Below, one piece after another: positions 4,069 to 27,847 of a DNA stretch of 34,483 nt (the first letter of the stretch is position 1; each line of letters begins with the position of its first letter). The DNA is from Rhodocyclaceae bacterium. GTDB lineage: Bacteria > Pseudomonadota > Gammaproteobacteria > Burkholderiales > Rhodocyclaceae. Where the stretch lies: the NCBI GenBank assembly GCA_025361105.1, contig JANYAW010000369.1, forward strand, positions 1 through 34,483. Direction: 5' to 3'. The notes under the pieces were generated by a model that was not told the origin of the DNA, did no database searches, and was given only the letters and a program-made list of their open reading frames with translations. Both the position numbers and the translations under genes were made by a program.

Positions 4069-4875
4069 TCAGTGCGACCAGTCCAGACGCTGAACTTTTC
4101 CGGCCTTGATTTCCAAGGCATCGCCACGACCCGTGTCCCAATCTGAAAGCACCCAGCGCTCACTGCCTGTGGCGGCATCGACGATCTCATGACCGGGTCG
4201 ATGTGTGTGACCGTGAATCATAATCTGGCAACCTGATGCAGCCAGCGTTTGCCTCACAACGTTTGGATTGGCATCCATAATCTCGGCAGATTTTTGGCGG
4301 ACTGCTTCTGCGCTACGCTGGCGTAGTGCAACAACTTCGGCGCGCCTGGCTTCTAAAGGTTTCGCCAGGAAATTTTTTTGCCATTCTCCTATACGTACAA
4401 GGCGGCGAAAATCCTGATAGGCATGATCGTCGGTGCACAGCGTATCGCCGTGGAGTAAAAGCGCTTGCATGGTGTGATTTAACGGCGTGTCACCAGCACC
4501 AACTGGCGGTTGCGTAATGGCTTGCGTGATATTCAACACGCTGAGCTCAGGCAACAAAATCGCACCGGTTGCCGCTGCGAAATTTGAGCCAATCAAGAAA
4601 TCGCGATTGCCATGCACGAAGAACAATCGCGTGCCGCCATCGGATAGCTGTCGCAACTTCGCGACGATTTCGGCGATGAACAAATCATCAAGATTGTCGT
4701 CACCTATCCAATACTCGAACAAGTCGCCAAGAATAAACAATGCCTCAATTTTTTGCGCCACACAATTGACCAAAAGGCGCGCAAATCGCTCGGTCAAGTC
4801 CGCGCGATCTTGGCGCAGGTGCAAGTCGGAGACAAAGCGGACGGTACCGGCAATGGAGAGCATGCCGTCGCCCAT
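4069..4875 (-). CDS. lpxH: UDP-2,3-diacylglucosamine diphosphatase
   Basis: Metallophosphoesterase motifs FVSDLHL, LGDLFEYWIGDD, HGNRDFLIG, HGDTLCTDD, HGHTHRPG. Contains an apparent extra loop encoded by repeat copy A. Confidence 0.93.
   Translation of the reverse strand: MGDGMLSIAGTVRFVSDLHLRQDRADLTERFARLLVNCVAQKIEALFILGDLFEYWIGDDNLDDLFIAEIVAKLRQLSDGGTRLFFVHGNRDFLIGSNFAAATGAILLPELSVLNITQAITQPPVGAGDTPLNHTMQALLLHGDTLCTDDHAYQDFRRLVRIGEWQKNFLAKPLEARRAEVVALRQRSAEAVRQKSAEIMDANPNVVRQTLAASGCQIMIHGHTHRPGHEIVDAATGSERWVLSDWDTGRGDALEIKAGKVQRLDWSH
4477..4507 (+). repeat. 31-bp dispersed repeat, copy A (inside lpxH)
   Basis: ATTTAACGGCGTGTCACCAGCACCAACTGGC, identical to the consensus. Confidence 0.9.
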
Positions 4876-8511: not shown

Positions 8512-9927
8512 ATGCTGAAAATTCACAATACGCTGAGCCGAGAAAAACAAGAATTTATTCCGCTTGAAGCGGGACGGATTCGGATGTACGTTTGCGGTCT
8601 GACGGTGCAAGATGTTCCGCACCTTGGCCACGCGCGCACCTTCATTGCGTTCGACGTGATTGCGCGTTGGTTGAAGATCACTGGGTACGACGTAAGCTAC
8701 GTCAGAAACATCACGGACATCGACGACAAAATCATTCGCAAAGCGGGTGAAGGCGGCGAGTCGATTGGCGCGCTGACTGAGCGCACCATCGTTGCGATGC
8801 AATCCGATTTTGCTGCCTTGGGAATGGCCGCGCCAGATTTTGAACCGCGCGCCACGCAATACATTCCGCAAATGCTGGAAATGATAGCGACTCTGGAGCG
8901 CAAGAAATTGGCCTATCAAGCGGGCGATGGCGATGTCAATTTTGCGGTGCGGCGCTTTGAAGGTTACGGAAAATTATCCGGCAAATCGCTCGACGATTTA
9001 CGCGCTGGTGAGCGCGTCGCCGTCGATACTTCAAAGCGTGATCCACTGGATTTCGTGTTGTGGAAATCCGCTAAAGCTACCGAACCTGCCGAGTCAAAAT
9101 GGGATTCACCATGGGGTTCGGGGCGTCCGGGCTGGCATATCGAGTGCTCGGCGATGTGCGTAGCAGTTTTAGGGAAGACTCTGGACATTCACGGCGGCGG
9201 GCCAGATTTGAAATTCCCGCATCACGAAAATGAAATCGCCCAAAGCGAAGGCGCACACGATGTGACTTTCGCCAACTATTGGATGCACACTGGTGCGCTC
9301 AATGTTGACGAAGAAAAAATGAGCAAGTCACTCGGTAATTTTTTTACCGTACGCGAGGCCTTGGCTCGCTACGATGCTGAAGTGATTCGTTATTTTGTGG
9401 TGCGTTCGCACTACCGCAGTAGTGTGAATTTTTCGGAAGACCAGCTAATCGAATCGCATGCTGCACTGCGTCGACTGTATACAGCGCTCAGGCAGGATTT
9501 GCCAGTTGGTGCTGGCAACACGCCGTTAAATGATGTGAATTGCGCAGTGAATTGGGATGACGATTACGGCAAGCGCTTTAGGGCCGCAATGGATGATGAT
9601 TTCAATACGCCTGAGGCACTCGCGGTGTTGTTTGATTTGGCTGGCGAAGTGAATCGCGGCAATCGCAGCGCTGTCTCGCAACTCAAAGCGCTCGGTGGCG
9701 TATTGGGTCTTTTGCAGCGAGCCCCGTCGGTTTTCTTGCAAGCAGTGACCGGGCTGACAGATGAACAGAGCCTTGGCAACGCGGCAATTGAGGAAAAAAT
9801 TTTGGCGCGAACGCAGGCTAAGCAAGCGAGAAATTTTGCGCAATCAGATCGCATTCGCGATGAGTTGAAGGCGCAAGGCATTGTTTTGGAGGATGGACCG
9901 CAAGGCACTACCTGGCGAAGATCGTGA
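8512..9927 (+). CDS. cysS: Cysteinyl-tRNA synthetase
   Basis: [47 protein letters not shown] (KMSKS). Contains an apparent extra loop encoded by repeat copy B. Confidence 0.97.
9501..9531 (-). repeat. 31-bp dispersed repeat, copy B (inside cysS)
   Basis: GCCAGTTGGTGCTGGCAACACGCCGTTAAAT, 29/31 to the consensus reverse complement. Confidence 0.9.
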
Positions 9928-16719: not shown

Positions 16720-16756
16720 CGGCAACGCAACGGCGTGTCCGTGGTGCTGGCGATAC

Positions 16757-16784
16757 TAATGGCGTGTCACCAGCACCAACTGGC
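16757..16784 (+). repeat. 31-bp dispersed repeat, copy C (between dut and aceB)
   Basis: TAATGGCGTGTCACCAGCACCAACTGGC, 27/28 to consensus; preceded by a partial inverted copy GGTGCTGGCGATAC at 16743-16756. Confidence 0.9.
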
Positions 16785-18533: not shown

Positions 18534-19430
18534 ATGAGCCATTTCAAACAAATGCAAGCCTTTGTGAATGCCGCCACACGCGGCTCGCTGGCCGACGCGG
18601 CAAGGCTGGACGAGGTGACGCCAGTGGTCATCGGGCGGCGCATTGATGCGCTGGAGACCCGCTTGGGTGTGCGGCTCTTGCTGCGCACGACGCGCAAACT
18701 CACGCTGACCCGCGAGGGTCAAGCTTTTTTGGAAGATTGTCAGCGCGTGCTGACTGATTTGAGTAACGCAGAAACGGCCGTGTCGCTTGGCAGCATTCGT
18801 GCGCGCGGGCACGTCAAAATTTCTGCACCGGCCGGATTTGGGCGGCGGCATGTTGCCCCGCACGTGGCGACATTTCAGGCCGAGCATCCCGACGTGCGCA
18901 TCAATCTGGATTTGACTGACCGGTTGGTCGATTTGATGAATGAAAGCGTTGATTGTGCGGTGCGAATCGGCGAGATGGATGATTCAAATTTGGTCAGCGT
19001 GCGCTTGGGTGAAATGCGCCGCGTGATCGTCGCCGCGCCTAAATATTTGCGGGCCAACGGCGTACCGTCAGCACCAACTGAGCTTGCGCATCACAACTGC
19101 TTATCGCTGACCCAACAACGCGGTTGGTCGTTGATGGCGAATGGCGAAGCACAGGTGATCAAAGTTGCAGGCAATTTGGAGAGCAACGATGGCGCCGTGT
19201 TGCGTGAGTGGGCACTGGCCAGCAAAGGGCTAGCCTGGCGCTCGTGGTGGGAAGTTGGCAACGATGTGATCAAAGGCAAACTCAAAACCGTGTTGGACGA
19301 TTACGCTGCGCCACCGGTCGGAATATACGTGGTGTTCCCAGATCGCCGACATTTGCCGCTGCGCGTGCGTTTGTTTATTGATATGCTGAAAGCATGTTAC
19401 GCGCGCGGTGATTATTGGGAGCGGACGTGA
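18534..19430 (+). CDS. LysR-family transcriptional regulator
   Basis: N-terminal wHTH (MSHFKQMQAFVNAATRGSLADAARL...VVIGRRIDALETRLGVRLLLRTTRKLTLTREGQAFLE) and substrate-binding domain. Located between aceB and aceA. Confidence 0.92.
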   Translation: MSHFKQMQAFVNAATRGSLADAARLDEVTPVVIGRRIDALETRLGVRLLLRTTRKLTLTREGQAFLEDCQRVLTDLSNAETAVSLGSIRARGHVKISAPAGFGRRHVAPHVATFQAEHPDVRINLDLTDRLVDLMNESVDCAVRIGEMDDSNLVSVRLGEMRRVIVAAPKYLRANGVPSAPTELAHHNCLSLTQQRGWSLMANGEAQVIKVAGNLESNDGAVLREWALASKGLAWRSWWEVGNDVIKGKLKTVLDDYAAPPVGIYVVFPDRRHLPLRVRLFIDMLKACYARGDYWERT

Positions 19431-19534: not shown

Positions 19535-20833
19535 TTAGTGAAACTGTTCTTCTTCCGTCGAGCCGGTCAGCGCAGTCACTGACGATTTGCCACCTTGAAT
19601 CACGGTCGTCACTTCATCGAAATAGCCAGTACCGACTTCTTGCTGATGCGAGACAAAGGTGTAACCACGATCACGCGCAGCGAACTCCGGTTCCTGTACT
19701 TTCTCAATGTACGCGGTCATGCCGCGTTCAACATAGTCTTGCGCCAGGTCGTACATGTGGTACCACATGTTGTGGATGCCGGCCAAGGTGATGAATTGGT
19801 ATTTGTAGCCCATTGCGCCAAGTTCGCGCTGGAATTTGGCGATGGTCGCATCGTCGAGATTTTTCTTCCAGTTGAACGACGGTGAGCAGTTGTAGGCGAG
19901 CAATTTGCCGGGGAATTTGCTGCGGATCGCTTCGGCGAACTTGCGTGCGAATTCCAAATCCGGCGTGCCGGTTTCACACCACACCATGTCGGCGTAGGGC
20001 GCGTAGGCGAGACCGCGGCTGATGGCTTGATCAAGGCCTTTATAGGTTTTGTAGAAGCCTTCTGCGGTGCGCTCTCCAGTGATGAATGGCTTGTCGTTGT
20101 CATCCACATCCGAGGTAACCAAATCTGCGGCTTCGGCATCGGTGCGGGCAAGGATGATAGTAGGTACGCCCATCACGTCGGCGGCCATGCGCGCGGCGAT
20201 CAGTTTTTGTACGGCTTCTTGCGTTGGCACCAAAACCTTGCCACCCATATGGCCGCATTTTTTGACTGAGGCGAGCTGGTCTTCAAAATGCACACCAGCC
20301 GCGCCAGAGCGAATCATGGCTTTCATCAATTCAAATGCGTTTAACACGCCACCAAATCCGGCTTCTGCATCGGCAACGATAGGCGCGAAATAATCGATGT
20401 AGCCTTTGTCGCCAGCGTCTATACCTTTGGAGTGTTGAATCTCATCCGCACGGCGGAAAGAGTTATTGATGCGCTCGACGACTTTTGGCACCGAGTCGAC
20501 GGGGTAGAGCGATTGATCGGGATACATCGCGGCGTAGCCGTTGTTGTCGGCGGCGACTTGCCAGCCGGACAGATAAATTGCCTTGATGCCGGCTTTGACT
20601 TGCTGCATCGCCTGACCGCCGGTGAGCGCGCCCAAGCAATTGACATAGGGCGTGTTGTTGACCAAGTCCCAAAGTTTGTCAGCGCCACGTTTTGCCAGCG
20701 TGTTTTCGATAGCGAAGGAGCCGCGCAAACGGACGATGTCTTCGGCAGTGTAGCCACGCTTGATGCCTTTCCAGCGCGGGTTTTCGGCCCAGTCTTTGGC
20801 CAGAGCGGCAGCTTGTGCTTTACGGTCAGTCAT
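19535..20833 (-). CDS. aceA: Isocitrate lyase
   Basis: [17 protein letters not shown] (KKCGH catalytic motif), full length. Start set at ATG 20833 ([15 protein letters not shown]). Confidence 0.97.
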
Positions 20834-20914
20834 TAGAGTTCCTTTGTATAGTGGGTAGGCGGTCAAGATGAACCACGACGCAAAGTTTACGTGGAGTATT
20901 GCGCCGTGTCAACA

Positions 20915-26342: not shown

Positions 26343-26373
26343 ATTTAACAGCGTGTCGCCAGCACCAACTGGC
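26343..26373 (+). repeat. 31-bp dispersed repeat, copy F
   Basis: ATTTAACAGCGTGTCGCCAGCACCAACTGGC, 29/31. Confidence 0.9.
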
Positions 26374-26496: not shown

Positions 26497-26527
26497 GTCA
26501 GTTGGTGCTAGCCACACGCCGTCAAAT
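26497..26527 (-). repeat. 31-bp dispersed repeat, copy G (inverted relative to F)
   Basis: GTCAGTTGGTGCTAGCCACACGCCGTCAAAT, 26/31 to the consensus reverse complement. Confidence 0.82.
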
Positions 26528-26614: not shown

Positions 26615-27232
26615 TCATTTCTGTTTGGTATAGAAATAATCGTAAGCAACACTCCAGCTTTTGCCGCCGTCGGCTGAGCGTTCAGAGTACTGCCTGACCT
26701 GACCTTGTGCAGTAACGCTGAGGGTCATTTTCCGCAATATCACTTTCCCATCACGCAAATGGGTCTCGCCTTCAAGGCGCATTGCGCCTTCATGCAAATC
26801 GCCGCTGAACTCGCTGACCGTACCGACTCGGTCAACCCACGTCTGGCGCCATTTGTACAGGGTAGCATCAAAAAAATTGATGCTCTTTCCTGTGTAGCCG
26901 TCCGGCTCAAAATAGCTTTCCAGAATTGAGCAGCTACCGGGCAGGCGTTCAATTTTGCTCTCGGCGATTTTCCGACCGTGGTCATAGACATCCCAGTTAC
27001 CGAGCCAGAAGTCGAGTTGCCGTTGCTCCACCGCCTTGTTGTCGCACGAGCTGTCCATGTCTAGCGCGGGGGTCTGCGTCGCTGATTGGCTATAGGCAGG
27101 GAATGCGAAGTTCAGACATAAGCCGAGCAGTCCGCGCATGACAAGCTGAATCATCCATTTTGGCAAACCAAACTGTGCGGAGAAAAGAACAATAGATTGC
27201 GGCGGCGATTGCAGCAACAGCATGTTTTTCAA
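26615..27232 (-). CDS. Exported protein, DUF1579-like, unknown function
   Basis: Signal-like segment (VMRGLLGLCLNFAFPAYSQS) then QRQLDFWLGNWDVYDHGRKIAESKIERLPGSCSILESY...; start uncertain. Confidence 0.65.
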   Translation of the reverse strand: MKNMLLLQSPPQSIVLFSAQFGLPKWMIQLVMRGLLGLCLNFAFPAYSQSATQTPALDMDSSCDNKAVEQRQLDFWLGNWDVYDHGRKIAESKIERLPGSCSILESYFEPDGYTGKSINFFDATLYKWRQTWVDRVGTVSEFSGDLHEGAMRLEGETHLRDGKVILRKMTLSVTAQGQVRQYSERSADGGKSWSVAYDYFYTKQK

Positions 27233-27300: not shown

Positions 27301-27331
27301 ATTCGACGGCGTGTCACCAGCACCAACTGGT
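27301..27331 (+). repeat. 31-bp dispersed repeat, copy H (downstream of DUF1854 gene)
   Basis: ATTCGACGGCGTGTCACCAGCACCAACTGGT, 28/31. Confidence 0.9.
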
Positions 27332-27358: not shown

Positions 27359-27847
27359 CTACAAAAACCGATCCAATAATCGTCGACTGGTTTTGTCCAG
27401 CGCCAATACATCAGCAATCAAAAACTGTATTGAATGGCTATCGGCAACCAAAAGTGAATGCTTGCCCAGATGTCGTATGTCTTCTTCGCCACGCAGGACA
27501 AATGAGGTTTCGCCGCGATCGGTGTCGACTGTCCATGTGCTGGGTGTAGCGAAACTTGAGACGCGTTTTAGACGCGTGATGGTTGGCATAAATTCACGTG
27601 CGGCCAATTCGCTGGTCACTAGATCGCGCAAGTCGGCGGGGAGATCGGCGAGGCTTTCTATCCAAGCCAATTCTTCGCCGTTGATGGCGACGACTGAAAT
27701 GCCTTCATTCGGCGCAGCCACTGGGAAGGCGCGCACCGGTGAGACACCTTCGTGCGACACGCCATGCACATCGGTCAAAACCAAGCGTCCAAAAGTGTTT
27801 CGCCGAAATTGAAAGTTAACGCGTTGAAAGTTATTTATTTCAGCCAT
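27359..27847 (-). CDS. DUF1854 family protein, probably linked to cyanophycin metabolism
   Basis: FQFRRNTFGRLVLTDVHGVSHEGVSPVRAFPVAAPNEGISVVAINGEELAWI...; overlaps the 3' end of the ABC transporter gene by 8 nt and lies next to cphA-type genes. Confidence 0.82.
   Translation of the reverse strand: MAEINNFQRVNFQFRRNTFGRLVLTDVHGVSHEGVSPVRAFPVAAPNEGISVVAINGEELAWIESLADLPADLRDLVTSELAAREFMPTITRLKRVSSFATPSTWTVDTDRGETSFVLRGEEDIRHLGKHSLLVADSHSIQFLIADVLALDKTSRRLLDRFL

Follow-up and report, generated by a model that had tools for sequence, protein, structure and literature searches.

A DNA-uptake-sequence-like repeat in a Sulfuritalea-like clade of Rhodocyclaceae and its site in a lengthened loop of LpxH

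Introduction

Uptake sequences have been described for the Neisseriaceae (PMC3630211) and the Pasteurellaceae (PMC1626085), and the properties reported for them include over-representation, dialects, permissive sites, even spacing, an origin by point mutation and long-term stability of the sites (PMC3630211, PMC1626085, PMC1939737). The DUS of the Neisseriaceae, which is recognized by the receptor ComP, is 10-12 nt long with a CTG core, occurs in hundreds to thousands of copies at permissive genic and intergenic sites and forms genus-level dialects that track phylogeny (PMC3630211). The USS of the Pasteurellaceae consists of a 9-nt core with AT-rich flanking segments, originates by substitution at sites that are stable over long times, and falls into two diverged types, Hin and Apl, in sister subclades (PMC1626085). 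Abundant short repeats enriched between genes are also formed by REP elements, which go with RAYT (Y1) transposases. Rickettsia palindromic elements (RPEs), in turn, are in-frame repeat peptides in tolerated loops of essential genes, present as insertions of roughly constant length. Among MITEs, REP/RAYT elements and RPEs, target-site duplications are expected for MITEs only.

Here we describe a repeat of about 580 copies in a Rhodocyclaceae genome, one copy of which lies in frame in the lipid A gene lpxH. The repeat resembles the DUS and the USS in its copy number, its genic and intergenic sites, its dialects and its origin by substitution, and differs from both in its contiguous strong consensus of 24-25 nt, unrelated in sequence to the USS; at about one copy per 5 kb it is also less dense than the DUS, and its receptor is putative. 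Weighing the evidence below, we put at roughly two in three the probability that this repeat is a signal akin to DNA uptake sequences in a Sulfuritalea-like clade of Rhodocyclaceae. In the part of the literature that was covered, we found neither an uptake sequence in Rhodocyclaceae nor this motif, and as far as that literature goes the signal, which looks like one of the DUS/USS kind, is new for the family.

Results and discussion

The repeat family

The window, by which we mean the whole stretch of 34,483 nt that was analysed, belongs to a metagenome assembly of 420 contigs (G000), 13% of which was analysed in detail; whole-genome counts stem from a genome-wide motif search and the finer analyses from a 370 kb sample. 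The strong part of the motif is CAGTTGGTGCTGGYRACACGCCGT, of 24 nt, and about 33 nt can be aligned over the 92 copies of the sample, although their consensus is somewhat flattered by collection at up to five mismatches. In these copies, no signal was seen in the flanks outside the aligned motif. The sequence-only reading of this DNA had proposed a repeat family, and the family is genuine: the window holds seven copies at up to three mismatches, against none in 100 shuffled sequences, and the 2.86 Mb genome holds 577 (284 and 293 on the two strands), whereas the reversed pattern has no copy genome-wide and the reversed sequence none at up to four mismatches in the sample. The features of the window that concern us are as follows.

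4069..4875, minus strand: lpxH, UDP-2,3-diacylglucosamine diphosphatase, 268 aa (NCBIfam matches, alignment to relatives, model)
4463..4525, minus strand: region of the extra lpxH codons, marked by two GCTTGC that lie 57 nt apart (a direct repeat at chance level) and comprising the motif and over 20 nt that do not belong to the repeat
4482..4505, minus strand: motif copy in lpxH, exact consensus, encoding PVGAGDTP (relatives have an orthologous copy in the family dialect)
9503..9526, plus strand: motif copy in cysS (PVGAGNTP), with 8-10 extra residues compared with the relatives G017 and G008
16759..16782, minus strand: motif copy just downstream of the stop of a malate synthase-like gene, adjoining a partial inverted copy at 16729-16752
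19055..19078, minus strand: weak motif copy in a LysR-type gene, reading VPSAPT, at the position where the orthologue in G008 carries the dialect of that genome
19441..19464, plus strand: motif copy between the convergent genes for a LysR-type regulator (18534-19430) and an isocitrate lyase-like protein (19535-20866)
26348..26371, minus strand: intergenic motif copy
26499..26522, plus strand: intergenic motif copy, inverted relative to that at 26348-26371
27306..27329, minus strand: intergenic motif copy between the minus-strand genes 26615-27232 and 27359-27847

At 16729-16782 the motif overlaps a diverged inverted partner (ACGGCGTGTCCGTGGTGCTGG beside ATGGCGTGTCACCAGCACCAACTGG), and comparable tandem-like tails occur at two other loci (L002 and L009).

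Dialects and orthologous sites

At up to three mismatches, AAAAGTCGGYGCTGGCGRCACGSCG has 24-778 copies in each of the 33 genomes behind related lpxH loci, mostly Sulfuritalea, Rhodocyclaceae or Rhodocyclales MAGs, and none in three outgroup genomes. The dialect of the clade relatives, AAAAGTCGGYGCTGGCGRNACGGCG, differs from that of the genome under study, whose own dialect, at up to two mismatches, has 531 copies there and a single hit in one of 249 other family genomes. Further dialects are AAAAGTCGACGCTGG in G068 and AAAAGTCAGTSCCGG in G010. Since dialect-like motifs of lower count are seen in these two genomes and in G018, G022 and G069, the system may reach beyond the clade within the family.

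The dialects meet at common sites. For 20 of the 26 alignable genic copies of the own dialect, the orthologous protein of G008, which belongs to another genus (and is treated as the genome of locus L069, on agreement of counts and listed coordinates), has the G008 dialect at the corresponding position and pointing the same way, in most cases with 0-2 mismatches, and such a match is found by chance in 1.2% of random windows of that size. Many sites are thus old and have been kept, while the sequences at them changed together.

As a separate observation, the family dialect occurs as an exact copy in 73 viral-contig stretches of IMG/VR (L227-L299), which might mark phages or prophages of the clade; the own dialect was not found in IMG/VR viral contigs.

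Placement and spacing of the copies

Copies are depleted from genes and concentrated between converging ones. Only 53% (G000) and 61% (G008) lie inside genes, against 90-92% expected, and gaps between convergent genes hold 11-12% of the copies in both genomes, against about 1% expected; intergenic enrichment is weaker in the small sample from G001 (treated as the genome of L039, on agreement of counts). Genes were called with a home-made gene finder whose output looks sound on the window. Among same-strand genic copies of G000, 24 of 27 are read in the frame that gives VGAGDT. The spacing is evener than random, with a coefficient of variation of the gaps of 0.64 against 0.89 in G000 (P 0.0002) and 0.62 against 0.98 in G008 (0 of 5000 simulations as low), and is not significantly even in the 30-copy sample of G001.

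A chromosome-organising or segregation signal, in which an intracellular protein would bind motif copies at intervals of about 5 kb and selection would preserve the sites, could account for the even spacing, and also for the orthologous sites, the long and specific motif and the intergenic enrichment; on account of their even spacing, uptake sequences themselves were at one time suggested to play a part of this kind. We nevertheless hold this explanation to be unlikely. No orientation pattern was seen among neighbouring copies along the contigs, and a joint dialect switch of hundreds of sites would be achieved more easily by the drive of uptake than by selection acting site by site. It also counts against such a signal that no known nucleoid protein, as far as we are aware, has around 600 sites as long as these.

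Substitution or insertion

From three genomes, we chose 24 well-conserved protein segments that contain the motif and compared them with the family member G017, a nearly motif-free reference with at most six matches to the family dialect. The net length change was zero in 14 of the 24 segments, among them segments recognizable as MurC, MurG, LeuS, TsaD, AroB, RsmE, HrpA, QueE and GlnS; in the rest it lay between -5 and +8, with no one value favoured, some motif sites gaining 6-8 residues. At the level of sequence, these alignments show that most of the tested genic copies arose by substitution in existing codons; motif-bearing DNA may have been inserted at a minority of sites. In the same gap test on the USS, Redfield et al. 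found gaps in just 24% of alignments (PMC1626085).

Target duplications, of which the sequence-only reading had seen a candidate in lpxH, were sought around the 92 copies of the sample, and flank-shared 6-mers (29 of 92 copies, against 22.4 +- 3.9 for randomly re-paired flanks) and 7-mers (8 of 92, against 6.4 +- 2.3) gave no clear excess over chance. On the gap, duplication and orthology tests together, we rejected a mobile insertion with target duplication.

More broadly, a short mobile element of the REP/RAYT, MITE or RPE kind, inserting in frame into genes, would be suggested by the high copy number, by the extra codons in lpxH and cysS and by the short hairpin into which the own-dialect consensus is predicted to fold. 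Both G000 and G008 have a Y1 transposase-like gene, and in G000 its stop is followed after 14 nt by a motif copy. The other evidence makes this explanation quite improbable. Most tested sites show no net indel, the gap and orthology tests revealed no fixed-length insertion with empty sites in relatives, and the orthologous sites that do exist across genera hold another dialect, with copies spaced evenly rather than clustered. The outer pairs of the hairpin are often broken among own-dialect copies, and no hairpin is predicted for the other dialects. Among the carriers, no Y1 gene turned up in G061 (680 copies, 85% complete), G018 (82 copies, complete) or G068. A REP/RAYT system was therefore rejected on the missing Y1 gene of several carriers and the lack of a hairpin common to the dialects; the many genic copies without length change and the even spacing likewise set the motif apart from REP elements. 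RPEs share with the motif the in-frame repeat peptide in a tolerated loop of an essential gene, as in lpxH, but here the length mostly stays unchanged and the sites are shared with relatives. The Y1 (IS200/RAYT-like) genes are single, on C200 in G000 (L137, L342) and on C3 in G008 (L159), and in G008 two motif copies have 15 further upstream bases in common.

A transcription-termination or RNA-processing element spread across gene ends, to which the enrichment between convergent genes and the own-dialect hairpin could point, is very improbable, given that about half of the copies lie within genes in both orientations, that the dialects have no hairpin in common and that an Rfam search of the window returned a tRNA alone and no match at the motif.

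The LpxH loop

The lpxH product matches PRK05340.1 (254 bits, cut-off 134) and TIGR01854 (219.5 bits, cut-off 190.35). At 268 aa, against 244-251 aa in most clade relatives, it has a net gain of about 18 codons. This agrees in substance with the 19-codon insertion claimed in the sequence-only reading: the extra codons are real and specific to the lineage, and alignment sets the gain at about 18. The same reading held that LpxH normally passes almost directly from the VLNI-like strand to LLxHGD, and solved LpxH structures do lack about 17 of the residues in between. The direct repeats GCTTGC are present at 4463-4468 and 4520-4525, offset by exactly 57 nt as had been noted, but the 57-nt unit itself does not stand as a repeat, since the conserved repeat measures only about 24-33 nt and more than 20 nt of the unit lie outside it. 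The exact repeat copy, CCAGTTGGTGCTGGTGACACGCCGTTAAAT on the lpxH coding strand, is flanked by the 18 extra codons on both sides, and these include a 12-nt near-tandem repeat (ITQA-ITQP). In the predicted structure the extra codons lengthen a beta-hairpin whose turn (residues 120-132, of low model confidence) sits between strands 112-119 and 133-141, which bears out the suggestion of a tolerated loop.

The motif itself is not peculiar to this lineage. About 30 relatives carry it at the same LpxH loop, mostly without a gain in length, and most have VGAG[GD]T there, encoded in their own dialect (AAAGTCGGCGCTGGYGRYACGSCG) and without the extra codons. The alanine codon of the motif is GCT in 20 of 22 lpxH genes, against 60 of 793 at other lpxH alanine codons (P 1e-19), a bias that shows conservation at the level of DNA and not merely of protein. 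Because related species hold the same site in another dialect and mostly without an insertion, the lpxH repeat is unlikely to owe its place to a mobile element, contrary to what had been suggested from the sequence alone.

Judging from the alignments, the motif site in the LpxH loop appears to be ancestral to the clade, and the copy either switched dialect along with the other sites or arose afresh at this loop; the match at 20 of 26 orthologous positions favours the switch. Around this site, the beta-hairpin seems to have been lengthened, specifically in this lineage, by the approximately 18 extra codons. The LpxH proteins of L043, L045 and L061 each have expansions of their own beside the motif, which marks the loop as permissive. 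A pattern common to the expansions of L043 and L045, CVPxxPL...RGQVTA, is perhaps another repeat. In-frame repeat peptides that resemble insertions can be converted native codons.

DNA uptake

The over-representation on both strands, the preponderance of substitution over insertion and, in G000 and G008, the even spacing with intergenic enrichment are what is seen in signals of the DUS/USS type. The genome under study encodes ComEC/Rec2 (349 bits, cut-off 190) and DprA (245 bits, cut-off 191), as well as a cluster of pilins, the first of which matches the Pfam family ComP_DUS (32.9, cut-off 27.3), a further likeness to the Neisseriaceae. Competence genes do not discriminate carriers, as ComEC occurs in nearly all relatives, including nearly motif-free ones, and the ComP_DUS-type pilin family, too, is present in nearly motif-free relatives and was for this reason dropped as a specific marker; uptake as the function is therefore inferred.

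On this reading, motif-bearing DNA would be preferred by a receptor at the cell surface, probably one of the type IV minor pilins, and fragments from kin would pass into the cell by way of the pilus and ComEC and be recombined with the help of DprA. The bias of uptake would keep turning near-matches into the motif at any place, in proteins or between genes, where the change is tolerated. A shift of receptor specificity in this lineage, followed by the old sites, would have given rise to the own dialect; lpxH would be one such old site, and the lengthening of its permissive loop by additional codons a separate event. On balance we lean towards a third, overlooked self-recognising DNA uptake system, in Rhodocyclaceae, with an unusually long signal and hundreds of orthologous sites that switched dialect with the receptor change of one genus.

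The Neisseriaceae and Pasteurellaceae are known mostly from animal hosts, and if free-living Rhodocyclaceae do have a clade-wide system with dialects, it could be tested whether host-associated life is needed for it. The joint change of a receptor and hundreds of sites would likewise become testable, as would the extent to which a DNA signal unrelated to proteins reshapes their loops.

A candidate place for the receptor is a minor-pilin cluster at L340:5815-9140, close to which two motif copies lie; it encodes PilE/ComP-type and FimT/GspH-type pilins, PilV, PilW and one more pilin-like protein, and after these a PilY1-like protein.
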